64,000 nt of DNA, from the NCBI RefSeq assembly GCF_902702915.1, contig NZ_LR738849.1:372001-436000 (forward strand). Direction: 5' to 3'. Under the pieces are notes generated by a model. The model was not told the DNA's origin. It was given only the letters and a program-made list of their open reading frames with translations, and ran no database searches. The translations under genes and the position numbers were made by a program. Below, piece by piece: positions 27,792-43,829 of this stretch (positions are counted from its first letter, which is position 1; the number at the start of each line of letters is the position of its first letter). Source of the stretch: Desulfovibrio sp. 86 (GTDB lineage: Bacteria; Desulfobacterota; Desulfovibrionia; Desulfovibrionales; Desulfovibrionaceae).

Positions 27792-27848
27792 AAGCGGGCG
27801 CGATTGTTGGCACTGGTTCGCGCGCACGTTGCGCATAAAAAGATACAT
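27792..27848. repeat. 57-bp dispersed repeat, copy A
   Basis: A 57-bp sequence starting aagcgggcgcgattgttggc and ending ataaa-a-agatacat recurs at 31503-31559 with one visible difference. Copy A abuts the right-end hairpin of the IS200-type element. Confidence 0.85.
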
Positions 27849-27962
27849 CAGCACCACCCGCATAGCGGGTGGTTTGCTCTGGCCCTGTAAGGGCCTGTTG
27901 CCGGCTGCGCCTAAAGACGCTGGCTTTCACTGCGTTCAAGCCCAGTGCCATTGTCGCTTTGG

Positions 27963-27999
27963 CTACCCCTTGAAGGGGTCTTGATACTCGCGCGTACTC
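27963..27999 (-). pseudogene. tnpA: Displaced 3' end of tnpA
   Basis: If the IS2-like element and one copy of the 5-bp duplication (GAGTA on this strand) are removed, the reading frame of tnpA continues through TREYQDPFKG to a TAG at 27965-27963. The restored tail matches the usual TnpA C-terminus, so these 37 bases are the original 3' end of the gene now lying 1.3 kb away. Confidence 0.9.
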
Positions 28000-28013
28000 T
28001 GGAGTTGCCCCTG

Positions 28014-28853
28014 CTAAACCGGACACTCCAAGATTTGCAATGAACGGATAAACTCACGAGGCGAGAGCATCCGCAGGGCCTTGTGCGGGGCATTTTCATT
28101 ATAGTCTTCAAACCAGCAAGGGAGTAGCGCCATCACAGTTTCGGCATCCGGTCGATCATTGCAGAAGACGTAATCCCTTTTGAATGTTTTGACGAGAGCT
28201 TCAGCCATACCGTTACTTTGAGGGCTGCGAACTGGAGTAAACTTGCTGACGATGCCCAAGGCGGCGGCAAACGTTACTGTTTCTCTTGCCGTGTAGCAGG
28301 AGCCGTTGTCGGAGAGCCATTCAACTGGCTGCAATGTTTTGACATCCCCAAACCGCTTTTCAACGCATGCCAGCATGACGCTTTGCGCCATGTCAGCACT
28401 GTACCCGCCAGTGGTGGCGGCATAGGCCATAACTTCTCGGTCGCAAGTATCCAGGGCAAAAATGACGCGCACCCGCTCACCGTTGTCGCAGGCAATCTCA
28501 AACCCGTCAGAGCACCAACGCTGATTTCTTTGTAGTGTGGAAACCTTGCCCGTGTGTGCCTTGTCAGGTTGGCTGCCAGTAAACCGTGCCAGCAACAGGT
28601 TATTTTGCCTCATTATCCTGTACACACGTTTATGGTTGACCGGAGTGCGCCCATCGGCAACCAGTTGCCGATTAAGCAGTCGCTGGATACGCCGATAGCC
28701 GTAGGTCTGGCGTCCGCCCAAAAGTTCGACGATCAGCGGTAGAAGGAATGCGTCTTCTGCTTTGCTGTATCGTTCCGGGCGAGGCCGTGGGCTGCGGCTA
28801 CGTTCATAGGTGTTGGATCGGGACACCGCCAGGGCGTCTGTGACCCGTTTCAC
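28014..28853 (-). CDS. IS2-like transposase OrfB (catalytic part)
   Basis: About 279 residues with an HTH_21-like part (GGRQTYGYRRIQRLLNRQ) and an integrase core. DDE residues are seen in RWCSDGFEI / FALDTCDREVMAY, EWLSDNGSCYTARETV and SPQSNGMAEALVKTFKRDYV. The GTG at 28853 overlaps the orfA stop as GTGA, but the active enzyme is probably the OrfAB fusion made by -1 frameshifting. It stops 14 bp inside the left inverted repeat. Confidence 0.92.
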   Translation of the reverse strand: MKRVTDALAVSRSNTYERSRSPRPRPERYSKAEDAFLLPLIVELLGGRQTYGYRRIQRLLNRQLVADGRTPVNHKRVYRIMRQNNLLLARFTGSQPDKAHTGKVSTLQRNQRWCSDGFEIACDNGERVRVIFALDTCDREVMAYAATTGGYSADMAQSVMLACVEKRFGDVKTLQPVEWLSDNGSCYTARETVTFAAALGIVSKFTPVRSPQSNGMAEALVKTFKRDYVFCNDRPDAETVMALLPCWFEDYNENAPHKALRMLSPREFIRSLQILECPV

Positions 28854-29248
28854 TGGAAATCCTCCACGCCGGACAAGGGCAGCCGCGAGATAAGTTTTTT
28901 TTCGCGGCCAATGCGAACAGCTTCTTTGAGGATTTCCACTTCCAGTGTTTTGTTGCCAAGGACGCGTTCCAACTGACGGATTCGCTTTTTCAGGGCCTTT
29001 ACTTCGGCAACGCTGACAACCTCGTCATTGGCTTCAATGGCTGTTTTGCCGCCTTCACTCATCTGCTTTCTCCAGCGGTAAAGCAAATTGGGAGCAACGC
29101 CATACGTTCGTGCCACCAGAGAAACCGACTGACCTGGGGCCATGCTGGCCTCTATCAGGCGAACTTTCTCGCCGACAGACCAACGGCGACGGGGCGTTAT
29201 GTTTACTATCTCCACCGTTGAACTTGTTTTAGCACTAGTTCCAGACAT
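28850..29248 (-). CDS. IS2-like OrfA (DNA-binding part of transposase)
   Basis: 132 residues: an HTH domain (RRRWSVGEKVRLIEASMAPG, SVSLVARTYGVAPNLLYRWR) followed by a leucine-zipper-like coil (VKALKKRIRQLERVLGNKTL). Near its end the codons GAA AAA AAA contain eight A residues (28895-28902). A -1 slip there opens a frame running through YLAAALVRRGGFPVKRV straight into OrfB, producing OrfAB. The ATG has a GGAGGAGGTGC-type ribosome site upstream. Confidence 0.92.
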   Translation of the reverse strand: MSGTSAKTSSTVEIVNITPRRRWSVGEKVRLIEASMAPGQSVSLVARTYGVAPNLLYRWRKQMSEGGKTAIEANDEVVSVAEVKALKKRIRQLERVLGNKTLEVEILKEAVRIGREKKLISRLPLSGVEDFQ

Positions 29249-29298
29249 AGTTCCAGCACCTCCTCCTTAGTTAGAGGGGTGTCCGGTCGAAATGGGGG

Positions 29299-29730
29299 CT
29301 ACTCCATACTCAACTTATCTTGCAAAATGTCATGCTTCTCCTGCTGCTGGATATATTTTCTGATCGTTGCCTCGTTGAGTCCGACTGTGCTGACATAGTA
29401 TCCTTCGGCCCAAAATTTTCTGTTGCCGAACTTGTACTTAAGGTTTGCGTGTTTATCAAAGATCATCAGTGAGCTTTTGCCTTTCAAATACCCCATAAAA
29501 CTCGATACGCTGATCTTTGGCGGGATACTCACCAGCATGTGTATATGGTCTGGCATCAAATGCCCTTCTAAAATCTCTACCCCTTTGTACTTACAAAGAC
29601 TCTGCATGATTTCTTTTATACTATCGCGCAGTTGTGCGAATATTATTTTTCTTCGATACGTAGGTGTAAACACGATATGATACTTGCACAGCCATTTTGT
29701 GTGAGCTAAGCTTTGGGCCTTGGTTCCCAT
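29299..29730 (-). pseudogene. tnpA: IS200-type transposase TnpA (HUH/Y1), 3' end replaced by insertion
   Basis: Single-strand transposase of about 153 residues originally. The HUH motif is seen in LMPDHIHMLVSIP and the catalytic Tyr region in EGYYVSTVGLNEATIRKYIQ. The last sense codons are now Met-Glu and the stop, contributed by the inverted repeat of the IS2-like element, in place of the native TREYQDPFKG tail (see 27963-27999). Most of the fold remains, so residual activity cannot be excluded. Its ribosome site AAGGG lies inside one arm of the upstream hairpin, the known way IS200 keeps TnpA low. Confidence 0.9.
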
Positions 29731-29731
29731 A

Positions 29732-29801
29732 ACAAAAACACCCTTCTTTATAAGTTACGATGGGCTTGAACAACTTCATCGTACAGGAAGGGTGTTTTTG
29801 T
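29732..29801. repeat. Long interrupted hairpin at the 5' end of tnpA
   Basis: Outer 15-bp stem acaaaaacacccttc / gaagggtgtttttgt (29732-29746 and 29787-29801) and inner stem tacgatg / catcgta. It spans the tnpA ribosome site and is comparable to the IS200 left-end structure that blocks incoming transcription and sequesters the start. Confidence 0.85.
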
Positions 29802-29841
29802 GTGTATAACACTTTGTCCCCACCCGCATAGCGGGTGGTTC

Positions 29842-29884
29842 TCTGTTTCGCGCGCTGGCGCGCTCAACTGGCTAAAGCCATAAA
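29842..29884. repeat. Dispersed repeat adjacent to terminator (copy 2)
   Basis: Second copy of the roughly 42-bp sequence at 6531-6573 (ctgtttcgcgcgctgg ... ggctaaagccataaa). It stands between the IS200 left end and a terminator hairpin. Confidence 0.6.
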
Positions 29885-29889
29885 TCTAA

Positions 29890-29917
29890 ACGGCCCGTTT
29901 CGCGAGAAACGGGCCGT
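29890..29917 (-). terminator. Terminator of the PAS / flavin-reductase-fold pair
   Basis: Perfect 12-bp stem acggcccgtttc / gaaacgggccgt with a gcga loop, downstream of the minus-strand gene ending at 29951. Confidence 0.75.
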
Positions 29918-29950
29918 GGTTGCAAGAACGCTGGTACAGGCGTTAGTGAG

Positions 29951-30346
29951 TTAGAGCGGTAGCTCCTGCTTCTCGCCGCTTATGCTCTGGCAGACAGCTT
30001 TCGCCTCATCAATGTAGAAAATTTCAAACCTGCCATCGCCCACCGCATATATTTTCTCCAGATCGGGCATGACTTCAAAGGCTTTCTTTTGGGTCTCGGG
30101 TGAAGTGGCGAAAACAGCCTTACCGCAGATGCGCAGGGTGTTGTATTTTTCATCCACAGCGCAAATCTCCACCTTGGGGTTGTTCGCCATTTGCTTGCAC
30201 ATATTTTTGTCATTACTGGTACAGAACGCGAGCTTTCCACCGCAGTCCATCACAAAACCGATCGGGCGGACATGAGGTTGATCGCCTTCACAAGTGGCCA
30301 GATAGAACACCTTGGCATCTTGCAAAAAATTCAGAGCTTCTTTCAT
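29951..30346 (-). CDS. Pyridoxamine 5'-phosphate oxidase-family (FMN-binding split-barrel) protein
   Basis: The 131-residue product begins MKEALNFLQDAKVFYLATCE, then QPHVRPIGFVMDCGGKLAFC, the split-barrel signature of small PPOX-type flavoproteins (NimA/HugZ-like), and ends with FEIFYIDEAKAVCQSISGEK. Such proteins bind FMN, F420 or heme and often act as general reductases; the substrate is unknown. GGAG eight bases before the ATG at 30346 supports this start over a longer frame from 30511. It follows the PAS-like gene by 46 bp and is likely cotranscribed. Confidence 0.85.
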   Translation of the reverse strand: MKEALNFLQDAKVFYLATCEGDQPHVRPIGFVMDCGGKLAFCTSNDKNMCKQMANNPKVEICAVDEKYNTLRICGKAVFATSPETQKKAFEVMPDLEKIYAVGDGRFEIFYIDEAKAVCQSISGEKQELPL

Positions 30347-30392
30347 GATCTGGACTCCTCTAAGTTGTGAAATTGAGAGCCTACTGGTGGAC

Positions 30393-30797
30393 TCAATTTG
30401 CGACTTTCTGGAATAGTTGCGCCAGTTCGGCGGGGTTGCGGTGCTCTCCAGTTCTATAATTGATAGTCTGGCCCACGCTGAAATGGAGATAGTATTCCGG
30501 GTGTCCTTCAAGCGGAACCCAAAATCCTACAGCATAGCCGTCAGCCAAGGGCATAAATACGTGGGTAGCCTTTTCCTCTGCCAAGGCTTTGTTGGCAAGG
30601 CAACCTTTGTGCATTTCAGGAGTTCCAACACTTGAGCACTTTATGCCCTGTTTAAGGACTCCCAGCTTATCAGCGGCTTTGTTTAGGGCGATTACCTCCC
30701 TGCTTTTGTGGAGGAGGACAACGCCTTCGGGGAAATTCCCCCACATCATGTGAAAAGCGTCTATCGCTGCACTTGGGAGTGGATGTTTAAGCTCCAT
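30393..30797 (-). CDS. Small PAS-like sensor protein, 134 aa
   Basis: The sequence AFHMMWGNFPEGVVLLHKSR, EVIALNKAADKLGVLKQGIK and HVFMPLADGYAVGFWVPLEG reads as a single PAS fold without an effector domain. Two Cys (about residues 54 and 66) might ligate a cofactor. With the downstream split-barrel flavoprotein it forms a two-gene unit, perhaps a redox sensor and its partner. Start ATG 30797 has AAGGA a few bases upstream. I do not know a characterised homolog. Confidence 0.65.
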   Translation of the reverse strand: MELKHPLPSAAIDAFHMMWGNFPEGVVLLHKSREVIALNKAADKLGVLKQGIKCSSVGTPEMHKGCLANKALAEEKATHVFMPLADGYAVGFWVPLEGHPEYYLHFSVGQTINYRTGEHRNPAELAQLFQKVAN

Positions 30798-30941
30798 AGC
30801 AGTTCCTTTTTAAAGTTTTGTAACCTATAGGCGCATCTTTTATCATTGCTGTAAATGGTAGTATATGACGAAAAATATATAGTCTATTGTCAAAAACAAG
30901 AACAATGTCTCAAAAAAGCCACATTGGACTTACAGAGGTAC

Positions 30942-31500
30942 TCCCCAAAATTCGGACAGGTGTGGAAACTACACTTGAACGCAAGGAGAGTACGAATGAG
31001 CGCGCGCAAAAATCACACCCCCGCCTTTACGGGCCAAGGTAACCTTGTTGGCCCTTTCCGGTGAGAAAACTATCGCCGAATTGAGTTCGGAATTTGGCGT
31101 TCACCAGACGCAAATTCACCGGTGGGTCAAGCAGGTCAAGGATTCTGTCGCGGGTATATTTTCCGGTGAAATCAAGACCGGAGAAGCCAAAGGGGAAAAA
31201 ACTCCGTGGGTTGCACGCCAAAATCGGCCAACTCACCGTGGAACGCGATTTTTTAGCCAAAGCCTGGGGGAAGCGGTGAGCGTCTCCCGCAGGCAAAGCA
31301 TGGTGCAGCACGGCCATGTCACGCTCAGTGTTGTCCGGCAATGCGATCTGCTCGGCGTTTCCCGCTCCGGCCTGTACTGCACGGCCAAGGGCGAGCCAGC
31401 TATGAACCAGATTTTGATGCGAGAAATAGATTTGGCCTTTACCGAGTGGCCCATCCTTGGCGTACGCCAGATGCGGAGTTATTTGCGATTGCTGGGTTAA
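30942..31500 (+). pseudogene. Decayed IS3-family transposase (orfA frameshifted, orfB truncated)
   Basis: A left-end-like sequence tactccccaaaattcggaca begins near 30944. OrfA starts at ATG 30996 (SARKNHTPAF), then needs a one-base correction near 31034 to continue as RAKVTLLALSGEKTIAELSS and VHQTQIHRWVKQ. A second shift near 31190 is needed to read LRGLHAKIGQLTVERDFLAK. OrfB (from about 31275) reads VSVSRRQSMVQHGHVTLSVV, RQCDLLGVSRSGLYC and ends after about 75 of roughly 280 residues, exactly where the 57-bp repeat copy B begins. It is not functional. Confidence 0.88.
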
Positions 31501-31502
31501 CA

Positions 31503-31559
31503 AAGCGGGCGCGATTGTTGGCACTGGTTCGCGCGCACGTTGCGCATAAACAGATACAT
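31503..31559. repeat. 57-bp dispersed repeat, copy B
   Basis: Second copy of the repeat at 27792-27848, here at the breakpoint of the truncated transposase and just before a terminator. Confidence 0.85.
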
Positions 31560-31562
31560 AAG

Positions 31563-31589
31563 AAAGCGGGGATATGCCCCGCTTTTTTG
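31563..31589 (+). terminator. Rho-independent terminator
   Basis: Nine-bp stem aaagcgggg / ccccgcttt with loop atatg and a run of T residues. Confidence 0.85.
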
Positions 31590-31703
31590 TTATTATCAAC
31601 ACGCTTCCTCCGGCTTGGCATAAGGCTCTATGGCCAGTCTCAAGCGGCGTTGCCAATCAGTTTTTGAGACACCATATATGAATCACACGCCTGAGAGGGC
31701 GAG

Positions 31704-31734
31704 AGCAAACCACCCGCTATGCTGGTGGTTTGCT
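31704..31734. repeat. Orphan IS200/IS605-type end hairpin
   Basis: Sequence agagcaaaccacccgctatg followed by ctggtggtttgct resembles, on the opposite strand, the right end of the element at 27.85 kb (agagcaaaccacccgctatg then cgggtggt). An 11-bp stem agcaaaccacc / ggtggtttgct can form. It looks like a remnant or minimal copy of an end. Confidence 0.6.
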
Positions 31735-32191: not shown

Positions 32192-33850
32192 ATGGTTAGT
32201 GATTCGTCATATCGCGGTACAGAGCGTTGCTGGTCCACAAAGCGAGACGCCAAAAAAGGCAAGATGTCACGCATTGCCCACCTTTTATCCGGCAAGTTTG
32301 TTCTTGAAAAAAATTTTAGCGAGCTGCTTCGCCATGTCGTTGCACCGGGCGAAACCGTCGTTGTTGAAAGCGGCCAAAAACAGGCCAGCTTTCTGTCTGA
32401 AGCTTTGGCCAGTGCAGATCCTTCAGTCCTGCACGACATTCACATGGTCATTCACGCAGTGGCCCGACCCGACCATGTTGAAGTTTTTCAGCGCGGCATC
32501 GCCAGCACCCTCGATTTTGGCTACGCAGGCCCCATGAGCCAGCAGGTGGCGTCGCTCGTCAAGAGCGGAGAGCTCACCATCCGCTCCCTGAATACCTATG
32601 TGGAACTTTCAAGCCGTCTGTTTGTGGATCTGATACCCCACGTTGCATTTATTTGCGCGGATGCCGCCGACAGCCAAGGCAACCTGTTTACCGGCGCAAA
32701 TACCGAAGACACCCCTGCTATTACGGAAGCCGCAGCCTTTGGCAACGGCATCGTCATCGCGCAGGTCAACGAAGTGGTTGATAAGCTGCCCAGAGTAGAC
32801 ATTCCCGGTGGATGGGTGGACATCATAGTCCGCACAGAAAAACCCTACGCCCTGGAACCCATCCAGACTCGTGACCCCAAGGACATAACCGAGTTGCAGA
32901 TCCTTATGGGGATGATGGTTATCCGCGGCATCTATGAACGGCATGGCGTTGTTTCGCTTAACCATGGCGTTGGCTTCAACACGGCCGCCATCGAGCTGCT
33001 GCTGCCTACGTACGGCGAAAGCCTGGGGCTCAAGGGAAAGATTTGTCGCAACTGGACGCTTAACCCGCAGCCAACACTTATTCCGGCCATTGAACACGGC
33101 TGGATAGAGAGCGTGCACAGCTTTGGCAACGAAGATGGCATGCAGGAATACATCAAGGCACGCTCGGATATCTTTTTTACAGGCCCTGATGGAAGTTTGC
33201 GCTCAAACCGCGAATTTTGCCAACTCGCGGGCCATTACGCCGTGGATTTATTTGCCGGTTCCACGTTGCAGATTGATGCGGTTGGCAACACCTCCACCGT
33301 CACCAAGGGGCGCATCACCGGTTTTGGCGGGGCGCCGAACCTCGGAAGCGATGCGCGGGGCCGTCGGCACAGTTCGCCCGCATGGCTTTCGATGATCAAC
33401 ACGGACTCTCCCACAGCGCACGGCAAAAAACTGGTCGTCCAACTGGCTGAAACCTACAAGGCCGGCGGCGTGCCAACCTTTGTGGAAAATCTGGATGCCA
33501 TTGAAGTTGGCAAGGATGCCAACCTGCCCTGCACCCCGATCATGATCTACGGTGACGATGTCACCCACATCGTTACCGAGCAGGGCATCGCCTACCTCTA
33601 TCTCGCGCAATCACTTGAAGAAAGGCGCGCAGCCATCGCTGCGGTAGCCGGCGCCACCACGCTGGGGCTGCGTTCATCACCCAAGAAAAACGCAGAACTC
33701 CGCCAGCAGGGTCTTGTCGCTTACCCAGAAGATTTGGGCATCAACCGCAACGAAGCCAAGCGTTCCCAGCTTGCAGCAAGGAATATGAAAGATATTGTTG
33801 ATATCTCAGGTGGTCTTTATGAACCTCCTGCACGCTTTAAGAACTGGTAA
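32192..33850 (+). CDS. mdcA: Malonate decarboxylase alpha subunit, first copy
   Basis: MdcA transfers the carrier protein from acetate to malonate (acetyl-ACP:malonate ACP transferase). The 552-residue product matches MdcA throughout: RCWSTKRDAKKGKM, ASTLDFGYAGPMSQQV, DLIPHVAFICADAADSQGNL, SLNHGVGFNTAAIELLLPTY, GKICRNWTLNPQPTLIPAIE, VHSFGNEDGMQEYI, GRITGFGGAPNLGSDARGRR, and the C-terminal GGLYEPPARFKNW. The fold is that of CoA transferases. AGGAG eight bases upstream supports ATG 32192. A second, very similar mdcA of the same length follows after a 160-bp gap with its own inverted repeat. Confidence 0.95.
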   Translation: MVSDSSYRGTERCWSTKRDAKKGKMSRIAHLLSGKFVLEKNFSELLRHVVAPGETVVVESGQKQASFLSEALASADPSVLHDIHMVIHAVARPDHVEVFQRGIASTLDFGYAGPMSQQVASLVKSGELTIRSLNTYVELSSRLFVDLIPHVAFICADAADSQGNLFTGANTEDTPAITEAAAFGNGIVIAQVNEVVDKLPRVDIPGGWVDIIVRTEKPYALEPIQTRDPKDITELQILMGMMVIRGIYERHGVVSLNHGVGFNTAAIELLLPTYGESLGLKGKICRNWTLNPQPTLIPAIEHGWIESVHSFGNEDGMQEYIKARSDIFFTGPDGSLRSNREFCQLAGHYAVDLFAGSTLQIDAVGNTSTVTKGRITGFGGAPNLGSDARGRRHSSPAWLSMINTDSPTAHGKKLVVQLAETYKAGGVPTFVENLDAIEVGKDANLPCTPIMIYGDDVTHIVTEQGIAYLYLAQSLEERRAAIAAVAGATTLGLRSSPKKNAELRQQGLVAYPEDLGINRNEAKRSQLAARNMKDIVDISGGLYEPPARFKNW

Positions 33851-34010
33851 TATTTAATTTTGAACTTTTACCATAATTAAAAACTATCAATAGACGAAAA
33901 AAAGTAATTTCACACAGTTTTGTACGACTGTTACATTTGCGTATAATTGGCAATACACTTTAATAATATAAGTGTATTTCCATCAACAAACAACGATTGT
34001 GGAGAAAAGT
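33851..34010 (+). promoter_or_regulatory. AT-rich gap between the two mdcA copies, with inverted repeat
   Basis: A 9-bp perfect inverted repeat aatacactt / aagtgtatt with a 9-base AT spacer (33952-33978) lies about 30 bp before the second mdcA. The gap is unusually AT-rich for this genome. It may carry a separate promoter or operator for mdcA' and the downstream genes. Confidence 0.5.
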
Positions 34011-35669
34011 ATGGCTACATCGTCAGATCAGACGCATGTTATCCGTTCGTGGACAACCAAGAGGGATAACAAGAAGAAAAAGCTTTCTTCTGTCGCTTCA
34101 ATGATGAAGGGGAAATTTCTTCCCACAAACAGGATTATTGATGCCTTTCATGCCCTGATTGAGCCCGGCGACACCGTTATTATGGAAGGTGTGCAGAAAC
34201 AGGCCGACTTTCTGTCCCGCTCGCTGGCGCAGGTCGATCCCAAAAAAATCCACGGCCTGGAAATGGTTTTGCACGCGATTGAGCGCCCTGACCATATCTC
34301 GATTTTTGAAGACGGCATCGCCTCTACGCTTGACTTCAGCTTTGCCGGGCCCCAAAGCCGCAAGGTTGCCGAGCTGCTTTCCAAGGGCGTCATCAAGGTT
34401 CGTTCGATGAACACCTACGTTGAACTTTCCGCCCGCCTGTTTGTCGATCTGATCCCCAAGGTGGCCCTGGTTTGCGCTGACGCCGCCGACGCCGAAGGCA
34501 ACCTTTACACCGGCGCCAACACTGAAGACACGCCTTCCATCATTGAAGCCACCTCCTTCAGCAACGGCATTGTCATTGTCCAGGTCAATGAAATCATGGA
34601 CAAGCTGCCCCGTATCGACATCCCCGGCGGGTGGGTTGATGTGATTGTCCAGGCCGACCGCCCGTTTGAAATGGAGCCCATCCAGACCCGCGACCCCAAG
34701 GACATCAGCGAGCTTCAGATTCTGATGGCCATGATGGCCATCCGCGGCATCTATGAAAAGCACAACGTCATTTCGCTTAACCATGGCGTTGGCTTTAACA
34801 CGGCGTCCATTGAACTTCTGCTGCCGACCTACGCTGCCAAACTTGGGCTCAAGGGCAAGATCTGCCGCAACTGGGTGCTCAACCCCCAGCCAACCCTTAT
34901 CCCGGCCATCGAAAGCGGATGGGTCGAAAGCGTGCACAGCTTCGGCAACGAAGACGGCATGCAGGAGTATATCAAAGCCCGCCCGGACATCTTCTTTACC
35001 GGGCCTGACGGCAGCCTGCGCTCAAACCGTGTTTTTTGTCAGCTGGCCGGTCACTACGCCATTGACCTCTTTGCAGGGTCCACGCTGCAAATCGACCCCG
35101 CAGGCAATACGTCCACAGTGACAAAGGGCCGTATCGCCGGCTTTGGCGGCGCACCCAACCTGGGCGGCGATGCCCGCGGGCGTCGCCACAGTTCGCCCGC
35201 ATGGCTCTCCACAATGGACACCACAAGTTCCACCGCTCACGGGCACAAACTGTGCGTGCAGATGGTGGAAACGTTCAAGGCCAGCGGTGTGCCGACCTTT
35301 GTGGAAAACCTTGACGCCATTGAAGTGGGCAAGGAAGCCAACCTGCCCTGCGCCCCCATCATGGTCTATGCGGAAGATGTGACGCACATCGTTACCGAAC
35401 AGGGCATTGCCTACGTGTACAAGGCCCAGTCCCTTGAAGAACGCCGGGCCGCCATCGGTGCTGTTGCCGGTGCGACCAACCTTGGCCTCAGCGCCAACCC
35501 CAAGAAAACAGCAGAACTGCGCCGCAGCGGTGTTGTCGCCTACCCCGAGGATCTCGGCATTGCCCGTTCCGAGGCCAAGCGTTCCCTTCTCGCGGCCAAG
35601 AACATGAAAGATCTTGTGGAGTGGTCTGGTGGTCTCTACGAACCCCCGGCCCGCTTCAGGAACTGGTAG
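34011..35669 (+). CDS. mdcA: Malonate decarboxylase alpha subunit, second copy
   Basis: 552 residues, same length as the first copy and strongly similar by eye from end to end (for example ASTLDFSFAGPQSRKVAELL, SLNHGVGFNTASIELLLPTY, GGLYEPPARFRNW). Differences are spread over the whole protein, so this is an old duplication or the import of a paralog, not a recent copy. All conserved MdcA blocks remain. The ATG at 34011 has GGAG seven bases before it; a frame extension to 33972 is unlikely. The next gene, mdcB, starts 12 bp after its stop. Confidence 0.95.
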   Translation: MATSSDQTHVIRSWTTKRDNKKKKLSSVASMMKGKFLPTNRIIDAFHALIEPGDTVIMEGVQKQADFLSRSLAQVDPKKIHGLEMVLHAIERPDHISIFEDGIASTLDFSFAGPQSRKVAELLSKGVIKVRSMNTYVELSARLFVDLIPKVALVCADAADAEGNLYTGANTEDTPSIIEATSFSNGIVIVQVNEIMDKLPRIDIPGGWVDVIVQADRPFEMEPIQTRDPKDISELQILMAMMAIRGIYEKHNVISLNHGVGFNTASIELLLPTYAAKLGLKGKICRNWVLNPQPTLIPAIESGWVESVHSFGNEDGMQEYIKARPDIFFTGPDGSLRSNRVFCQLAGHYAIDLFAGSTLQIDPAGNTSTVTKGRIAGFGGAPNLGGDARGRRHSSPAWLSTMDTTSSTAHGHKLCVQMVETFKASGVPTFVENLDAIEVGKEANLPCAPIMVYAEDVTHIVTEQGIAYVYKAQSLEERRAAIGAVAGATNLGLSANPKKTAELRRSGVVAYPEDLGIARSEAKRSLLAAKNMKDLVEWSGGLYEPPARFRNW

Positions 35670-35681
35670 GCAGGTAACGAT

Positions 35682-36611
35682 ATGGAGGCAGTTCTCGGAA
35701 CAGAGCACCTTTGGGACAGGCAACAGCTTTTGCCGGTAGACCTGACTGCAAAAGATTCACGCAAACTGTCAGGCAGTCCAGAAGATCTGACGCCAGAGGT
35801 ACTGGCAGATCTGGCTGTAAATGCCCTGATAAATGAGGTGGATCTAACGCCCAAGCCGGGGTTGGTGGACCAGCGAGGCTCAGGAACACACGTGGACCTC
35901 ACCCGCCAGCTTATGCACCGCTCTGCAAGATCATTGCGGGCATGCTTCAGGGCGATGGCCCATGAAGCCTTGATTCCTCAACCATATTCGTTGTTGAGGG
36001 AAAGGCTGGGGGCCATTGGACGTCAGGGCGAGATCGACATGTTTGCCGCCACTGAAGGCTGCAATACCCATAAAGGCGCCATTTGGGCCCTGGGATTGCT
36101 TGTTGCGGGGGCCTCCATTTGCCGCAAGGCAAAAAATCCTGCCGAGATGGCTGCTGTGGCTGGCGCCATTGCCAGATGCCCGGACCGTCATGTCCCGGTG
36201 CAGGACACGAACGGGAGCAAGGCTGTAAAGCGCTATGGCGTCAGCGGCGCGCGAGGTGAAGCCCAGGCTGACTTTCCACATGTCGTATGCGTTGGATTGC
36301 CGGCGCTGTGGGCGGCTCGCAACCGGGGATTGGCAGAAGATCATGCAAGGCTTGATGCCCTGATGGCGATTATGGCGGAGCTTGACGACACCTGCGTTTT
36401 GCACCGCGGCGGAGCAAAGGCCCTTGCCGCCACCAAACAGGGGGCACGCGAAGTGCTGCTCGTTGGGGGCACCGGCACCCAACGAGGCTATGAAGCCCTG
36501 ATGGCCTTGGACAAAAGGCTGTCCAGCCTGGGCGTTTCACCTGGCGGAAGTGGTGACCTGATAGCAGCAACGCTTTTTTTGGATTCAATGGTCCCAGGAT
36601 TCAACCTTTAG
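35682..36611 (+). CDS. mdcB: Triphosphoribosyl-dephospho-CoA synthase MdcB
   Basis: Makes 2'-(5''-triphosphoribosyl)-3'-dephospho-CoA, the precursor of the MdcC prosthetic group, from dephospho-CoA and ATP. The 309-residue product has the CitG/MdcB family sequences ALINEVDLTPKPGLVDQRGS, EIDMFAATEGCNTHKGAIWA, VKRYGVSGARGEAQADFPHV, DDTCVLHRGGAKALAATKQG and SPGGSGDLIAATLFLDS. About 35 N-terminal residues precede the conserved part. It is the third gene of the operon, closely spaced on both sides. Confidence 0.94.
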   Translation: MEAVLGTEHLWDRQQLLPVDLTAKDSRKLSGSPEDLTPEVLADLAVNALINEVDLTPKPGLVDQRGSGTHVDLTRQLMHRSARSLRACFRAMAHEALIPQPYSLLRERLGAIGRQGEIDMFAATEGCNTHKGAIWALGLLVAGASICRKAKNPAEMAAVAGAIARCPDRHVPVQDTNGSKAVKRYGVSGARGEAQADFPHVVCVGLPALWAARNRGLAEDHARLDALMAIMAELDDTCVLHRGGAKALAATKQGAREVLLVGGTGTQRGYEALMALDKRLSSLGVSPGGSGDLIAATLFLDSMVPGFNL

Positions 36612-36627
36612 CCTTTAGAGGTTCGTT

Positions 36628-36921
36628 ATGGAAACAATGCGTTTTGATTACCCGGCTTCGACCACGGTGCCCAAAAGGGTGTGCCTTGGCGTCGTAACTT
36701 CGGGAGACCTGGAAATACTGCTGCAGCCCTCAAGTGACGGGCGGTCCCATGTATTTGTTCAAACCAGCATCACCGGCTTTGGTGAAACCTGGAAAGCCGT
36801 GCTTGACTGGTTTTTCAGCACCTATACTGATGCTGCCGATATAGTGATTCATGATGCCGGCGCTACGCCCGGCACCGTAGCAATGCGTTTGCAGCAGACT
36901 GTGGAGGAAAGCAGATCATGA
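36628..36921 (+). CDS. mdcC: Malonate decarboxylase acyl carrier protein (delta subunit)
   Basis: 97-residue carrier that holds acetyl and malonyl through a phosphoribosyl-dephospho-CoA group. The serine that accepts the group is expected at position 25 in KRVCLGVVTSGDLEILLQPS, and Ser25 is present. GSITGFGETWKAVLDWFF-like sequence (here TSITGFGETWKAVLDWFF) is also family-typical. The stop overlaps the mdcD start as ATGA. GAGG lies nine bases before the ATG. Confidence 0.95.
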   Translation: METMRFDYPASTTVPKRVCLGVVTSGDLEILLQPSSDGRSHVFVQTSITGFGETWKAVLDWFFSTYTDAADIVIHDAGATPGTVAMRLQQTVEESRS

Positions 36922-37778
36922 GCGTGACCATGAACGAAGCAATCAATGAAGAATCGCGCCGCAGTTACATTGAACTGAAAGCCCGCGAACGTGCGCAACA
37001 GATCCTTGATCCGGGCACGTTCCACGAACTGCTTGGCCCCTTCGATCGCGTGGAGTCCGTTTGGTTGCCCATGCAGGGCATCGTTCCGCAGTCTGATGAC
37101 GGCTGCGTGGTCGCAAAGGGCAAAATCGACGGCCAGCCCGCTGTGGTCATCGCCATGGAGGGCAAATTTCAGGGCGGCAGCATAGGTGAAATATGCGGCA
37201 TGAAGATGGCCATGGCCTTTGCCCTTGCCCGCAAGGACAATGAAAAAGGCATCCCCACCCGCGCGGTTCTTTCCCTTGAGAGCGGCGGCGTGCGCCTGCA
37301 AGAAGCCAACATCGGCGAACTTGTCATTGCCGAAATTTATGCGGAACTGGTTGCACTGCGCAAATATACTCCGGTGGTTGTGGTGATCGCGGGCAACACG
37401 GGCTGCTTTGGCGGCATGTCGCTGGCAGCGGGGCTTTCCAGCTACGTTATCATGACCCGCCAGGCCCGCCTGAGCATGAACGGCCCGGAAGTTATTGAAC
37501 AGGAAGCCGGACTGGAAGAAATTGTTGCCAGTGACAAGGTCTTTGTCTGGGGCATGTGCGGTGGCGCTCAGCGTTACGCCACCGGCGCCGTTGATATTTT
37601 GGTTGAAGACGATGCTGATGCCATCACCGATGCTGTCAAGGACGTCTTCCGTAAAGGGCTCCCCCCTGTGCTGCGCACCAGCCAGTATGACCTCTTCATT
37701 CGCCGGCTGGAAGCAATGGATACCAGCAAGCAGTGGACAGCCGAAGACATCCGCAAAACCTGGAAGGAGATTGAGTGA
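36918..37778 (+). CDS. mdcD: Malonate decarboxylase beta subunit
   Basis: With MdcE it decarboxylates malonyl-S-MdcC to acetyl-S-MdcC. The 286-residue product has the carboxyltransferase (crotonase-like) fold: ARERAQQILDPGTFHELLGP, VAKGKIDGQPAVVIAMEGKF, GGSIGEICGMKMAMAFALA, LESGGVRLQEANIGEL, and AGNTGCFGGMSLAAGLSSYV, which should supply the oxyanion hole. No biotin subunit gene is nearby, consistent with the biotin-independent type. It overlaps mdcC (4 bp) and mdcE (1 bp). Confidence 0.95.
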   Translation: MSVTMNEAINEESRRSYIELKARERAQQILDPGTFHELLGPFDRVESVWLPMQGIVPQSDDGCVVAKGKIDGQPAVVIAMEGKFQGGSIGEICGMKMAMAFALARKDNEKGIPTRAVLSLESGGVRLQEANIGELVIAEIYAELVALRKYTPVVVVIAGNTGCFGGMSLAAGLSSYVIMTRQARLSMNGPEVIEQEAGLEEIVASDKVFVWGMCGGAQRYATGAVDILVEDDADAITDAVKDVFRKGLPPVLRTSQYDLFIRRLEAMDTSKQWTAEDIRKTWKEIE

Positions 37779-38611
37779 TGGGTAACAACGCTAAAGTATC
37801 GATGCGTGGACGCGCCTGGTTTGAAGCTTTGACCGGCAGCAACGGCAAACTGCCCGATGGCCCCGGTTCCCTGCTTGCGGCTGAAGCTCCTCTGGGCAAC
37901 GAACAGGCTGTCTTTGTGGGCCTTGCCCCTGACCCGCATGCGCGTTTTCCCCGCGTTAAAAACACGGAAGTTGGCCTTGAAGAAGGATTTTACGGCACCA
38001 GGGCCCTGCGCCAGGTCATGGCCCAGGATGCGGACAAGGCCGTGAAGCGCCCCATCATTTCGGTCGTTGACTCCATTTCGCAAGCGTATGGTCGGCGTGA
38101 AGAACTTGTGGGCATCCATATTGCCGCAGCTGCCATCATCGCCGCTTTTGCAGAAGCGCGCATGGCTGGCCACCCTGTGATTGCCCTGATTGTCGGCCGT
38201 GCCGTGTCCGGTTCATTCCTGACCCTTTGTGCCCAGGCCAACCACATGATTGCCTTCGATGACCCCGAAGTGCTCATCCACGCAATGTACAAGGATGCCG
38301 CAGCCCGCATCACCAAGCGCAGCGTGGCCGAACTGGACAAGCTCGGTGAAGAGATTGTGCCCATGGCGTATGACATTCGCTCGTTTAACAAGCTGGGCGG
38401 ACTGTACAAGCTGCTGCAGGTGGAAACCCCCGACGCCCCCAATGCCAGCACCGTCAAAAAGGTCAAGGATGTGCTGGCTGAAGCGGTTGCCGATGCGCGC
38501 AACACGCCCGCGACTCTTGACCGGCGTCTGGAAACTGAAGGCGCCAAGGAATACCGCAAAATGTCCATCAAGGTGCGCGACATGATGACCGCGCAATGGG
38601 CTGCAGTCTAG
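37778..38611 (+). CDS. mdcE: Malonate decarboxylase gamma subunit
   Basis: Partner of MdcD in the decarboxylase. The 277-residue product shows SMRGRAWFEALTG, VKRPIISVVDSISQAYGRRE, ALIVGRAVSGSFLTLCAQAN, MIAFDDPEVLIHAMYKDAAA and SVAELDKLGEEIVPMAYDI, all family-typical. AAGGAG lies seven bases before ATG 37778, which overlaps the mdcD stop (TGATG); a GTG one codon earlier is possible. A large hairpin follows its stop. Confidence 0.95.
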   Translation: MGNNAKVSMRGRAWFEALTGSNGKLPDGPGSLLAAEAPLGNEQAVFVGLAPDPHARFPRVKNTEVGLEEGFYGTRALRQVMAQDADKAVKRPIISVVDSISQAYGRREELVGIHIAAAAIIAAFAEARMAGHPVIALIVGRAVSGSFLTLCAQANHMIAFDDPEVLIHAMYKDAAARITKRSVAELDKLGEEIVPMAYDIRSFNKLGGLYKLLQVETPDAPNASTVKKVKDVLAEAVADARNTPATLDRRLETEGAKEYRKMSIKVRDMMTAQWAAV

Positions 38612-38622
38612 CCCCGTGCACG

Positions 38623-38655
38623 ATGGGGGGCATCACTGCAAGTGATGCCCCCCAT
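38623..38655 (+). terminator. Large hairpin between mdcE and mdcF
   Basis: Perfect 15-bp stem atggggggcatcact / agtgatgccccccat with a gca loop, 12 bases after the mdcE stop. There is no T-run, so it may be a partial terminator or an mRNA-stability element that sets the ratio of enzyme to transporter. Confidence 0.6.
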
Positions 38656-38846
38656 AACCACGAGCAAGGGCTGCCCAAACGCCTAAACGACAAAATGACA
38701 GGTGATCGGCTGGTGGCTCACACGATACCACGCTATTGCTGTTTATTCTGCTGTGATGTCGGCACATAAATCTGCGTTTGCGCGAACTGCCATGGTATTT
38801 CTTTGTCGATAGTACGGCATAAAAGAAAGGACTTACGGAGATCATG

Positions 38847-39836
38847 ATGGAAATATTGCAATCGCTTAGTGGGGTTTTTAGCTGCATGCTGATGATTGGC
38901 GTGGGCTTTTACCTCTCCAGCAAGAAATGGTTCGATCAGTCGTCAGCCAAATTGTTTTCCAAGATGGCCATGACCCTTACCATCCCCCTGTATATGATCG
39001 TCAGCATGATGAAGTCGTATACAAAGGCTGACCTCATGCAGCTGGGCGTGGTTGTTATTGTGCCGTTGTTAACGATGCTGATCACGTTTATTGTGGGCAT
39101 CATCACATCCGTTGTTTGCCGCATTCCCGATTACCGCCAGGGAACCTTCCGCTGCATGTTTTTTGTCGCCAACACCGCATTTATTGGATTTCCAGTAAAC
39201 GTGGCCTTGTTTGGCGACAAGGCCTTGCCCTACGCGGTCATGTACTACCTTGTTCAGTCGCTTCTCTTCTGGACGATTGGCACATATGCCATGAGCCTTG
39301 ACGGTCCCAAAATGGTTGCGCAGGGCCTGAGTGAAAACGATGAGCCCATGCAGTCTCCCAAGATTTTCAGCATGCAGACCGTCAAAAACATCCTGACCCC
39401 CCCGCTTATCGGTGCGATGGTTGCAATTTTGCTGATTGTAACTGACGTAAAACTTCCCAAATTCATCAGCTCTACCTTCGCGTCCTTCGGCGGCATGACC
39501 ACGCCGCTGGCCATGCTCTTCATCGGCATATCAATATTTCTGGTCAATCTGCGCTCCATCCGTCTGACATATGATGTTGTCATTCTGATTGCCGCGCGCT
39601 TTATCATTGCGCCGGCCATTATTGTAATCACCTGCCACTTCATAGAAGTGCCGGATCTGATGCGCAAGGTTTTCATCATTGAATCGGCCATGCCTGTCAT
39701 GACGCAGTGCTCCATTGCGGCGCGGGCCTTCAAGGCCGACTATTCCTATGTGGCTGTTGTTACAGCTGTAACCACATGCATGTCTTTAATTACAATTCCA
39801 ACGTTCTTCATACTCCTTTCGTTCGGGATTATCTAA
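38847..39836 (+). CDS. mdcF: AEC-family transporter MdcF (malonate carrier)
   Basis: About 329 residues with roughly ten membrane helices (SGVFSCMLMIGVGFYLSS, LGVVVIVPLLTMLITFIVGI, FFVANTAFIGFPVNVALFGD, PLAMLFIGISIFLVNL). The TAFIGFPV block and the weakly duplicated five-helix halves are typical of the auxin efflux carrier family, to which MdcF belongs. Genome position fixes malonate as the likely substrate. ATG 38847 was preferred to ATG 38844 because GGAG is then six bases upstream. A 230-bp gap with a hairpin separates it from mdcE. Confidence 0.88.
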   Translation: MEILQSLSGVFSCMLMIGVGFYLSSKKWFDQSSAKLFSKMAMTLTIPLYMIVSMMKSYTKADLMQLGVVVIVPLLTMLITFIVGIITSVVCRIPDYRQGTFRCMFFVANTAFIGFPVNVALFGDKALPYAVMYYLVQSLLFWTIGTYAMSLDGPKMVAQGLSENDEPMQSPKIFSMQTVKNILTPPLIGAMVAILLIVTDVKLPKFISSTFASFGGMTTPLAMLFIGISIFLVNLRSIRLTYDVVILIAARFIIAPAIIVITCHFIEVPDLMRKVFIIESAMPVMTQCSIAARAFKADYSYVAVVTAVTTCMSLITIPTFFILLSFGII

Positions 39837-39840
39837 AAGC

Positions 39841-39868
39841 AGTTCACCCCATGAAAATGGGGTGAACT
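39841..39868 (+). terminator. Hairpin with GAAA tetraloop between mdcF and the ligase-like gene
   Basis: Twelve-bp perfect stem agttcaccccat / atggggtgaact closed by a GAAA loop, just after the mdcF stop. No T-run; a terminator or RNA-processing or stability structure. Confidence 0.6.
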
Positions 39869-39895
39869 GTTCAATCATGCTGCCTGGAGGTGCCC

Positions 39896-40999
39896 ATGTG
39901 TCAAAAACAACTTGAAAATCTTGCAGCCGTTGTAGAAAAATTTGGCAGCGCCCCCACAATTGCAGACATGCCGCGCCGCACCCTTGCTGACAAGGGCATA
40001 AACGGGCCCACTGCGGCTCACGTTATTGAAGAAGTACATAGCCCCTACAACCTTGCATACCTGACGTTTACTACCGGCTCATCGGCTTTTCAGAACATTG
40101 TGGGCGTCACGTTTGAAGAGCTGCCCGACAGAAAGCGCGCCACGCAAAAAGCCCTGGAGATGGCCAACATTTCCAGGGGGGCGCACGCGCTTGTTACCTA
40201 TGCGCCGCTGGTAAATGTTTACTCCGCGCAAGCGCTGCACGAATACGGCATGACATGGTCTTTTTTGCTTCGCTCAAGCCGTGATGCGCTCATAGTGGCG
40301 CTGTGCAGGGACAAACCAAAAGTTTTGATTGGAGAATCCGGTTTTTTGAAGGTTGCGCTTGAAGACGTCGCCAATCTGGGACTTGCCGAAGCCATGCCGC
40401 GAGACTGCATCGTCCTCTGTTCAGGAACCCCTCTGGACCTGGACATCATCCCTCTCGCTCAAAAATACGGCTGGCAGATCCATGACCTGTACGGATGCCA
40501 GGAGTTCGGATGGATCGCTCTTGATGGACGCCCGTTGCGCGATGACATCTCCCTTGTGCCATCCCCCCTCGGAGATGATTACAAAGAGCTTGTACTTGGG
40601 GGTCTTCCGCTTGCAGACAGCTTTATCATTGGTGCAGGTGGGCATGAGTGCAACAGTAGCGGACAAATTTTGACGTACAGAAGAAAACGCACGCATCCAG
40701 AATATGAAGTACTGATAACAGCAACAACGTTTTCTGACCCGACAATAATAGAAAAAGCTGCGCGCAGTATTCTTCGCATAAAAAGCCGTGTGGTTAAAGT
40801 GCATCCGCATATCAAATGCAATGCGGAGGCGACAGAAATGCAGCTTGTGACAAACATGGCCCTCACAGAACGCGATGCCAAGCCTGCGGCAACAATTACC
40901 GGCCCGCAAAAAACGCGCTTGTTCGATTCTCTCGTGGAAGCTCAGATTGCCTTTCAGAAGGCCGGCAAGACAGACCCTACTTGGGTCAAAAAAAGCTGA
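39896..40999 (+). CDS. ANL/LuxE-PaaK-like adenylate-forming ligase in the mdc operon
   Basis: 367 residues, not an mdc gene that I recognise. LTFTTGSSAFQN at about 57-68 looks like the Ser/Thr/Gly phosphate loop of adenylate-forming enzymes (compare TSGTTG). DLYGCQEFGWIALDGRP at about 196-212 sits where the family has its Y-x-x-x-E motif. ILRIKSRVVKVHPHIKCNAE resembles the hinge and start of the C-terminal lid, which is short. Size and motifs recall LuxE acyl-protein synthetase and phenylacetate-CoA ligase. It lies exactly inside mdcF-X-mdcG while mdcH (malonyl-CoA:ACP transacylase) is missing. My inference is that it primes MdcC by ATP-dependent acetylation or malonylation. TGGAGG five bases before ATG 39896. 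Confidence 0.6.
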   Translation: MCQKQLENLAAVVEKFGSAPTIADMPRRTLADKGINGPTAAHVIEEVHSPYNLAYLTFTTGSSAFQNIVGVTFEELPDRKRATQKALEMANISRGAHALVTYAPLVNVYSAQALHEYGMTWSFLLRSSRDALIVALCRDKPKVLIGESGFLKVALEDVANLGLAEAMPRDCIVLCSGTPLDLDIIPLAQKYGWQIHDLYGCQEFGWIALDGRPLRDDISLVPSPLGDDYKELVLGGLPLADSFIIGAGGHECNSSGQILTYRRKRTHPEYEVLITATTFSDPTIIEKAARSILRIKSRVVKVHPHIKCNAEATEMQLVTNMALTERDAKPAATITGPQKTRLFDSLVEAQIAFQKAGKTDPTWVKKS

Positions 41000-41053
41000 A
41001 CGAGCAGATAGTTGCCACCGCCTCGACGTAAGATTACCGTAGCCGGAGTTGAT

Positions 41054-41779
41054 ATGCAGCAATACGAACGCCATACCCTGTTGGATATTAACTTTGAAGG
41101 AAGGATGCGGATTTTTACCGAGGCGGTGGCAAAAGGTTATGGCCGAGATGCCTGCTTGGAAATGCTATTGCCGGAGATGCAGAAGCCGGGGAAGGACAGC
41201 GTTGCCAGAGACAAAAGGTTTCTTGCCATTCCCGGAATTGTCAGACGCGAAGATACTGCCCCACGCCCGGGGGAAATCGCGGTGGGTTTTACCTCTGAGG
41301 CCTCGGGTGCCATGGGGCGCTTGCGCCTGCCTGGCTTTGTCCTGCCGGACGCGGTGCTGCGCTCGCGAACGCCTGTGGACGTTCTGCAACAAGCCCTTGG
41401 CTCTGCTTCTTTTTCCAGGACTCCAGCCCTTCAGGCTCTGGAGGCCGTAGTCACTTGCGGACTGCGGGGAACACGTATTGGAGTTTGGGGTTCAACAGGG
41501 TTGGAGCTTGCAACTGGCTACAAGTACACGCACAAGGCGTCGGATCTTGACGTGCAATTGCAACCCGAAGTGGGCTTGAGCCCCGATCTGCTGGAAGAGT
41601 GGCACGCATTGATGCTTACTGTAGAAAACAGGTTTGAGATCAGGATTGATGCAGAAATTCAGCTTAAAAGCGGATATGGCGTTTCATTAAAAGAGTGCTG
41701 CAAAAAAACAAAAACAGTACTTGGAAAAGGCCTGGATGACGTCAGACTGCTTTCAAGGGATGATATTTTTACAGGATAA
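41054..41779 (+). CDS. mdcG: Phosphoribosyl-dephospho-CoA transferase MdcG
   Basis: Attaches the prosthetic group made by MdcB to Ser25 of MdcC. The 241-residue protein shows the nucleotidyltransferase pair GVWGSTGLELATG and HKASDLDVQLQP (metal-binding Asp in SDLDV), and the N-terminal RHTLLDI expected for MdcG (consensus RHDLLW). FRIDAEIQLKSGYGVSLKE-like text (here IRIDAEIQLKSGYGVSLKE) matches the C-terminal part. GGAG six bases before ATG 41054. It follows the ligase-like gene by 54 bp. Confidence 0.92.
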   Translation: MQQYERHTLLDINFEGRMRIFTEAVAKGYGRDACLEMLLPEMQKPGKDSVARDKRFLAIPGIVRREDTAPRPGEIAVGFTSEASGAMGRLRLPGFVLPDAVLRSRTPVDVLQQALGSASFSRTPALQALEAVVTCGLRGTRIGVWGSTGLELATGYKYTHKASDLDVQLQPEVGLSPDLLEEWHALMLTVENRFEIRIDAEIQLKSGYGVSLKECCKKTKTVLGKGLDDVRLLSRDDIFTG

Positions 41780-41839: not shown

Positions 41840-42736
41840 ATGCAGTTAAAGTCAATACAATGTTTTATGGCGGTGTCCGAGTTGCTCAATTTTCACAGTG
41901 CCGCCGAACAGCTTGGCATGAGCCAGCCCGCACTTACGGCTCAGATACAGGCTCTTGAGGAGTGCCTTGGCGTCCAACTGTTTGTGAGAAACAGGCAAAA
42001 AACAGAACTTACCTATGCAGGAAATATTTTTCGCAAAGAAACTGCGGATCTGTTGCATATAGTTGACAGCGCCATTGCTCGAGCTCGAGCGACCGCGCAC
42101 GGCCTGGCCGGATATTTACGGATTGGATTCATATCAACAGCTGTGGCGGCAGGTGTTCTCTCACCATTGATTTCTGAATTCCGCCAGTTGAAGCCGGACA
42201 TCGAGTTGAACCTGCAAAGCATGTCCACAGAGTCTCAACTGGAAGCATTGCATGATGGAAGAATTGATATCGCCATTGTGCGCCTTCCATTAAAAAATAT
42301 TAATCACTTTGAAATCACGCCACTGTATTTTGAGCAACTCATTCTGCTATTGCCCAAAGCGCATCCTCTCTCATCAAGATCGTATATAGATTTATCTGAA
42401 CTTTCTGAGGTTCCTTTTATCCTCAATGCTCGCCATCGGGCCACAGGGTATTATGATTTTATTCAAAAAATGCTTTCCAACTCTGGCGTCATATTAAATA
42501 TACAGCAAGAAGTCGAAGAAATGTACACTCTGTGCTCGCTGGTTTCATCTGGTTTGGGGGTGGCTGTGGCTCCATGCTCTGTAAAATGCTACCGTTTGCC
42601 AGGAATTGAGTTTAAAAAATTGCCCGAACTGCCAAGGGTGGGCATTGCGCTTGTGACTCGAAAGAACGAAACGCTCGAGTATGTGCAGCTGTTTTCTGCC
42701 ATAGCAAAAGAGCGTAAAAATATTTCACATGATTAA
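41840..42736 (+). CDS. LysR-type transcriptional regulator, first of two
   Basis: 298 residues: winged HTH (LKSIQCFMAVSELLNFHSAA, EQLGMSQPALTAQIQALEEC, VQLFVRNRQKTELTYAG) and a periplasmic-binding-protein-like effector domain (LRIGFISTAVAAGVLSPLIS; LVSSGLGVAVAPCSVKCYRL). It stands after mdcG, where mdcR is found in several malonate loci. A likely target is the inverted repeat upstream of mdcA. It is AT-richer than the housekeeping genes. No strong ribosome site precedes the ATG. Confidence 0.88.
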   Translation: MQLKSIQCFMAVSELLNFHSAAEQLGMSQPALTAQIQALEECLGVQLFVRNRQKTELTYAGNIFRKETADLLHIVDSAIARARATAHGLAGYLRIGFISTAVAAGVLSPLISEFRQLKPDIELNLQSMSTESQLEALHDGRIDIAIVRLPLKNINHFEITPLYFEQLILLLPKAHPLSSRSYIDLSELSEVPFILNARHRATGYYDFIQKMLSNSGVILNIQQEVEEMYTLCSLVSSGLGVAVAPCSVKCYRLPGIEFKKLPELPRVGIALVTRKNETLEYVQLFSAIAKERKNISHD

Positions 42737-42811
42737 TCAGCAACGGCTTTTGTATTTCAAATAACCAGTACCTCCCGATGTAACTTTGCTGCCGTTGTGG
42801 AGGAGGACTTT

Positions 42812-43738
42812 ATGGAATTTATCCAGATACAGAGTTTTCTCGCCGTTGCAGAACTGCTGAATTTCAGTCAGGCCGCCAAAAAAGTTTTTTTAAGCCAGCC
42901 AGCCGTGAGTCATCAAATACACTCTCTTGAAAAAGAGCTGGGATTTCTGCTGTTCGAGCGTTCGCATAAAAAGGTGGAGCTGACCCCTGCGGGAAAAACC
43001 CTGTACAGGGAGCTGGCCCTCTATGGCGAGCAGTTTGAAAAAACTGTGAGCCAGACAAGGCTGGCCTCCAGGGGAGAAATTGGCAGGGTGCGTGTAGGCT
43101 TTATATCTACAGCTGCAGTGGATATCGTGCCAAACCTGATCCATCGTTTTAGTGAAAGTCATCCGCATGTAGAGTTGGAGCTTTGTAATGGGCTGACTGC
43201 CAGCCTGATAAGGCAGCTTGAACGTCAGCAAATAGATGTGGCTTTTTTTCGAACACCATATGCTTCTTCCGGTCTGTTGCAGCATATTGTCATTCACAAC
43301 GAACCGTTCAATGTGTTTCTGCCTGCCAATCACAAGCTTTGCTCCAAGACGACAGTGTCATTGCACGATCTGGATAAAGAAGTGCTGGTCTCGTACGCGC
43401 GTAACAACGCGCCTGGATACCACGACTTTCTAAATACAAATCTTCGAGCATCGGGGGCGGAACCAGCCAATGTGCATTTTGCAAACGACATGTACACCCT
43501 CATTTCAATGGTTTCTGCCGGAGTAGGTGTGGCCATAGCGCCTGCATCCCTCGACCGCTATGGACTCGCGGACGTTCAGGCGCGGCCCATCAGGGACGAC
43601 ATTGCCCCATCACAAATAGCGATAGCTTTTCACGCACAACTGACGCACCCGGCTGCAAGGGCTTTTATCGATCTGGCACTGTCTGAGGCCACTGTGCGCC
43701 TGGACGCGCGTCATGATGCTGCCGCTCTTGCTGAGTAA
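42812..43738 (+). CDS. LysR-type transcriptional regulator, second of two
   Basis: 308 residues with HTH (IQIQSFLAVAELLNFSQAAK, KVFLSQPAVSHQIHSLEKEL) and a co-inducer domain (VRVGFISTAAVDIVPNLIHR, VSAGVGVAIAPASLDRYGL). It resembles the preceding LysR throughout (both have FISTA at the domain start), so the two are paralogs. AGGAGG about seven bases before ATG 42812 argues for this start rather than the in-frame ATG five codons earlier. One of the pair may control mdc and the other the permease gene that follows. Confidence 0.88.
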   Translation: MEFIQIQSFLAVAELLNFSQAAKKVFLSQPAVSHQIHSLEKELGFLLFERSHKKVELTPAGKTLYRELALYGEQFEKTVSQTRLASRGEIGRVRVGFISTAAVDIVPNLIHRFSESHPHVELELCNGLTASLIRQLERQQIDVAFFRTPYASSGLLQHIVIHNEPFNVFLPANHKLCSKTTVSLHDLDKEVLVSYARNNAPGYHDFLNTNLRASGAEPANVHFANDMYTLISMVSAGVGVAIAPASLDRYGLADVQARPIRDDIAPSQIAIAFHAQLTHPAARAFIDLALSEATVRLDARHDAAALAE

Positions 43739-43770: not shown

Positions 43771-43829
43771 ATGTATCATAGCATGTTCGTCATAAAGAAT
43801 ATGATGGACATGCTATGATACATTTTTAC
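43771..43829 (+). terminator. Long inverted repeat / terminator after the second LysR gene
   Basis: Perfect 16-bp arms atgtatcatagcatgt (43771-43786) and acatgctatgatacat (43808-43823), with a further 7-bp inner helix, followed by TTTTTA. It is a strong terminator on the plus strand; its AT-rich arms also look like a protein-binding palindrome upstream of the permease gene. Confidence 0.7.

Follow-up and report, generated by a model that had tools for sequence, protein, structure and literature searches.

How is the acyl carrier protein of a malonate decarboxylase primed when the operon that encodes the enzyme carries no gene for MdcH? In the Mdc enzyme, MdcH charges the ACP from malonyl-CoA (PMC5534430). 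The question is raised by a 64,000-nucleotide stretch of Desulfovibrio sp. 86 (contig NZ_LR738849.1, positions 372,001 to 436,000; hereafter the window, from whose first letter all coordinates are counted), which contains a malonate decarboxylase operon with a ligase-like gene between the mdcF position and mdcG. An earlier note, made from the sequence alone, had proposed that this gene takes the place of mdcH and that its product could be an ATP-dependent enzyme acylating MdcC.

The operon occupies 32192-41779 on the plus strand, in the order mdcA1, mdcA2, mdcB, mdcC, mdcD, mdcE, AEC permease, ligase-like gene, and mdcG, and two LysR genes and a lactate-permease-family gene lie downstream. The gene set first read from the sequence, mdcA to mdcG without mdcH, holds for A, B, C, D, E, and G, all of which exceed their NCBIfam equivalog cut-offs, and for mdcH, which is absent from the operon; however, mdcA is double, and the gene at the mdcF position can be assigned just to the AEC family. 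The two mdcA genes, of the acetyl-ACP:malonate ACP transferase family (copy 1, 32192..33850, TIGR01110 833 bits; copy 2, 33972..35669, 855 bits), form a tandem duplicate whose copies are 72% identical to each other, and copy 1 is perhaps a paralogue of different function, e.g., malonate CoA transfer. They are followed on the same strand by mdcB, for triphosphoribosyl-dephospho-CoA synthase (35682..36611, TIGR03132 313 bits), mdcC, for the acyl carrier protein with its GVVTSGDLE site (36628..36921, TIGR03130 100 bits), and mdcD and mdcE, for the beta and gamma subunits of the decarboxylase (36918..37778, TIGR03133 366 bits, and 37775..38611, TIGR03134 283 bits). The gene at the mdcF position (38844..39836, plus strand) encodes an AEC-family (Mem_trans) transporter (PF03547 118 bits) whose similarity to Klebsiella MdcF is marginal (E 0.006). 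Between it and the ligase gene (39896..40999, plus strand) there is a perfect 13-bp hairpin (39840..39869), possibly a minus-strand terminator or a processing site at the junction of two modules. The mdcG/madK-type gene for holo-ACP synthase (41012..41779, plus strand, TIGR03135 113 bits, over the cut-off) begins 13 bases downstream of the ligase gene, and the LysR-type regulators 1 and 2 follow at 41840..42736 and 42797..43738, both on the plus strand.

The surroundings of the operon show further features. A 24-bp inverted repeat (92%) at 43771-43823, in the gap that separates LysR gene 2 from the lactate-permease gene, is possibly an operator or a bidirectional terminator. Just upstream of the operon, 27614-31729 holds a tRNA-Val, then transposases of the IS3 and IS200 types and a transposase remnant, with repeated ends of 40-60 bp at 27792-27892, 31503-31562, and 31690-31729, and this region is likely an insertion hot spot.

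A priming enzyme encoded elsewhere could account for the missing gene, and the complete genome (3.46 Mb, one contig) was searched accordingly. No MdcH-grade protein was found genome-wide: PF00698 matched only FabD and a PKS-like frame of 1491 aa, and the best score to the MdcH model was the 175 bits of FabD, against a cut-off of 297.9 and against 246 bits for the same protein to TIGR00128. Since these are the sole PF00698 proteins, the check for an MdcH outside the operon was negative, which agrees with the placing of the ligase in the position of MdcH.

The ligase-like gene itself was read as predicted. The mechanical open reading frame, 39890-40999, has 369 aa, and the ATG at 39896 gives 367 codons; the latter start is preferred, since a ribosome-binding site, GGAGG (39886-39890), directly precedes it. 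Both motifs singled out in the earlier note are present, TTGSS at 62-65 and YGCQEFGW at 201-208 (numbering of the 369-aa frame), and nearly every one of their residues is invariant in 10 relatives. In comparison with a copy in a second genome (G977, described below), dN is 0.31 and dS is saturated, indicating purifying selection and, therefore, that this is no chance reading frame.

Its enzyme class is less readily found by profile methods. Pfam and NCBIfam searches with the window ligase alone gave nothing useful, the best being a sub-threshold FAAL match (E 0.054), and phmmer against the PDB returned a single match, by chance. PF00501 is matched by four of nine relatives (best 2.4e-6) and not by the window ligase itself. 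An AF2 model built from five relatives has a mean pLDDT of 52, with a core (80-200) of about 60-86; a structure search with this weak model placed PaaK2 at the top (Z 11.4, rmsd 2.5, 132 aligned), and ANL enzymes made up nearly all of its top 50 matches. Moreover, the top Foldseek match of the ligase model was PaaK1 (E 4.9e-5). In an hhalign comparison (probability 56%, E 1.1e-4), residues 58-207 of the ligase profile aligned with E. coli PaaK, in register at both motifs: TFTTGSSAFQNIVGVT faces the A3 loop and DLYGCQEF the A5 motif. The active-site residues are only partly those of the canonical enzymes: the A5 motif YGCQE is kept, with E205 invariant among the relatives, as is the TTG of the A3 loop, whereas the canonical second Gly and the Lys of A3 are replaced by Ala66 and Phe67, so that TTGS(S/T) is followed by an invariant AFQ in the ligase family versus GKP in PaaK. 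The position of the A10 lysine, which is catalytic, was not found. By its modelled fold and motifs, the protein encoded at 39896-40999 is of the PaaK-like adenylate-forming (ANL) type, as the earlier note had supposed. Its further comparison with LuxE did not survive: the LuxE model PF04443 matched neither the window ligase nor eight relatives (E up to 1), the closest structure is PaaK, and membership of that family was dropped.

The relatives of the ligase place it in a known pathway. Proteins 50-57% identical to it are encoded by Rhodobacter capsulatus, Klebsiella, and MAGs of Clostridia (two) and Deferribacteraceae (two), in each case within a MadB-type cluster, the kind that specifies the sodium-pumping, biotin-dependent malonate decarboxylase. 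More genomes from the phylum of the Clostridia MAG likewise carry the ligase in MadB-type clusters, some of them on cut contigs, and, where the locus is complete, the ligase is immediately upstream of an MdcG-type gene. On the R. capsulatus plasmid pRCB133, the order is HutP, mdcB, madB, biotin ligase, mdcA, C, D, E, ligase, mdcG, biotin protein, madL, and madM. K. pneumoniae 176 has a cluster like that of pRCB133, and its Mad-cluster ligase (L010 12001-13043) matches in two pieces, so that the gene may be interrupted or the sequence may contain an error. In Malonomonas rubra, the order is madB-A-E-C-D-H-K-F-L-M, MadH being the ATP-dependent acetate:ACP ligase (EC 6.2.1.35). Judged by gene order, the position of the window ligase matches that of M. 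rubra madH, and it adjoins carboxyltransferase and MdcG/MadK genes, the context expected of MadH. It is, then, not a new type of enzyme but the ligase that MadB-type clusters carry in the place of madH.

No other copy of the ligase was found in 100 near relatives or in 395 genomes of the phylum. Strong mdcA matches in this phylum sample number just five beyond those of the window itself. Four of them stand without a local mdc operon (L040, L041, L043, and L044, about 9-10 kb in each), and these solitary mdcA-like genes are possibly stand-alone malonate CoA-transferases. Phage records gave no ligase match.

The earlier note had suggested a survey for anticorrelation of the ligase with mdcH, and this came out as expected. 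In Mdc loci located via mdcA, not via the ligase, MdcH is present in 10 of 10 and the ligase in none, while none of the 11 ligase-bearing genomes has an MdcH above the curated cut-off; as these genomes were collected by searching for the ligase, only the absence of MdcH from them constitutes an independent test. MadB (OAD_beta) is encoded in nine of the 11 and missing only in the two chimeric ones described below. In a plasmid collection, two of 48 mdcA records contain the ligase, and the same two have a close MadB. K. pneumoniae 176 carries both systems, the Mad cluster and an ordinary MdcH-bearing mdc operon, and each has a primer of its own. Mutual exclusion of the ligase and MdcH is thus supported in the loci examined.

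The core of the operon is of another type than the ligase would suggest. In trees, window A and D/E fall within the Mdc clade with support of 100/100 and B with 96/91, while C is placed more weakly. The window G, in turn, lies outside seven core Mdc G proteins, on a branch supported by 100/98-99, and has several N-terminal blocks in common with Mad G (RH-L, IPGIVRR, and VGF-S); it falls below the cut-off of PRK01293, though above that of TIGR03135. The AU test did not reject joining it to the Mdc G proteins (p 0.185, and 0.167 once the second chimera was included); window G is probably of the Mad type. Third-position GC is 0.535 in the ligase gene and 0.523 in mdcG versus 0.66-0.69 in A2, D, E, and F, with B (0.59) and C (0.55) intermediate. 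On the other side, MadB/OAD_beta (PF03977) has no match in the complete genome, no biotin-type reading frame (a MadF-like carrier) occurs in or beside the operon, and MadL and MadM are absent from the operon. An Mdc-type core with a Mad-cluster ligase, probably a Mad-type MdcG, and no MadB identifies the operon as a chimera: judged from sequence, A, B, D, and E are of the Mdc type, C less firmly so, and the mdcG-mdcH end would have been swapped for a ligase and a G resembling those of Mad. The swap probably covered a two-gene module, ligase and MdcG, rather than one gene.

A second such operon was found when 257 genomes of the class were searched, the ligase being present in only one other, G977, from a different genus of the same family. 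Its operon (L072) reads A-B-C-D-E-F-MFS-ligase-G-LysR-LysR, with the ligase and G genes overlapping, both LysR genes kept beside G as in the window, and a single mdcA that is closer to copy 2 (74%) than to copy 1 (66%). The MFS transporter gene (L072 6750-8045) separates the AEC permease gene from that of the ligase. Identity to the window is 75% for C, 85% for D, 80% for E, 76% for F, 63% for the ligase, and 44% for G, and the genome encodes neither MadB nor an MdcH-grade protein. The two G proteins are sisters in the tree (100/97), and both ligases group with that of R. capsulatus (98/94). As both operons are of the Mdc type and bear the ligase, the arrangement has been kept across two genera.

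The family of the ligase and the place of its gene point to ATP-dependent acylation as the priming step, with acetate as the inferred substrate and MdcC as the inferred target. MdcB and the Mad-like MdcG would build the prosthetic group and attach it to MdcC. The ligase would then convert acetate and ATP into acetyl-AMP and transfer the acetyl group to the holo-MdcC thiol, the net reaction being acetate + ATP + holo-MdcC -> acetyl-MdcC + AMP + PPi. The steps after priming follow known Mdc biochemistry: MdcA would exchange acetate for malonate on acetyl-MdcC, and MdcD-MdcE would decarboxylate malonyl-MdcC and so return it to acetyl-MdcC. In this way, both the first charge and the repair of deacetylated enzyme could proceed without malonyl-CoA or MdcH. 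That such ATP-dependent acetyl priming of holo-MdcC replaces the malonyl-CoA-dependent priming is considered likely, with a probability of about 0.75.

The ligase could also form malonyl-AMP and charge MdcC with malonyl, which MdcD-MdcE would turn into acetyl-MdcC. The cycle could start from either acyl group, and substrate residues are unreadable in the low-confidence model; however, the M. rubra enzyme encoded at the corresponding position uses acetate, all relatives but one are in Mad clusters, and the motifs of the chimeras are identical to those of their Mad-cluster relatives, so that no change of substrate is indicated and direct malonylation seems unlikely. Less probable still is a stand-alone acyl-CoA synthetase making malonyl- or acetyl-CoA, with FabD as the transacylase of MdcC. 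The ANL fold is common to MatB and acetyl-CoA synthetases and the genome encodes FabD, but the protein, at ~367 aa, is far shorter than either, and the loci examined pair the ligase with malonate decarboxylase genes, next to an ACP-modifying enzyme and without MdcH. Priming in trans by FabD or the PKS-like transacylase domain, both of which the genome does have, with the ligase as a passenger or in some other role, is very improbable in view of the purifying selection on the ligase in two genera and the retention of its motif residues.

The acyl-priming step may be a swappable module. It seems fairly probable that ligase and MdcG were transferred together out of a Mad system to an Mdc core, giving a cytosolic, biotin-independent decarboxylase that at least two genera of one family would prime with acetate and ATP. 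The hybrid envisaged in the earlier note is thus borne out at the gene level, by an Mdc core with a Mad-type ligase and no MadB, but the kind of enzyme is already known from the Mad pathway; what seems new is its combination with an Mdc core that needs no biotin. A search of open-access text on MadH, on acetate ligases with malonate decarboxylase, and on malonate decarboxylase in Desulfovibrio gave, among its titles and abstracts, no description of this chimera. The gene content indicates that MdcH is replaceable in a biotin-independent malonate decarboxylase, by a putative ATP-dependent priming ligase uncoupled from the sodium pump that accompanies its other relatives, and suggests that natural gene swapping can alter how malonate decarboxylase is switched on. 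Such an Mdc enzyme is predicted to run without malonyl-CoA, which could be of use to anaerobes and in engineered malonate use, and the system offers a direct test of how a small ANL ligase, poorly annotated and mostly missed by profile libraries, recognizes an ACP.

Among known systems, the proposed way of working can be likened to that of CitC, the citrate lyase ligase, which performs ATP-dependent acetylation of an ACP bearing the same prosthetic group; the fold of CitC, a nucleotidyltransferase, is unrelated to ANL. PaaK phenylacetate-CoA ligases are the top structural match and align at motifs A3 and A5, but identity is ~15% over 145 columns, and the window protein is shorter, with an altered A3 loop and another gene context. 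The operon resembles MadB-type clusters such as that of pRCB133 in having a ligase of the same family (50-57%) upstream of an MdcG/MadK-type gene and no MdcH. It differs from them in its Mdc-type A, B, D, and E and its AEC permease, in a genome without MadB and an operon without biotin protein or MadL/MadM. With the Klebsiella and Pantoea Mdc operons it shares the order mdcA-B-C-D-E-F-G and, more generally, with the biotin-independent Mdc systems that have MdcH (Klebsiella, Pantoea, Acinetobacter, and Pseudomonas), the Mdc-type core subunits, whereas it is set apart from these MdcH-bearing operons by the replacement of MdcH with a ligase between F and G, a Mad-like G, and a doubled mdcA.
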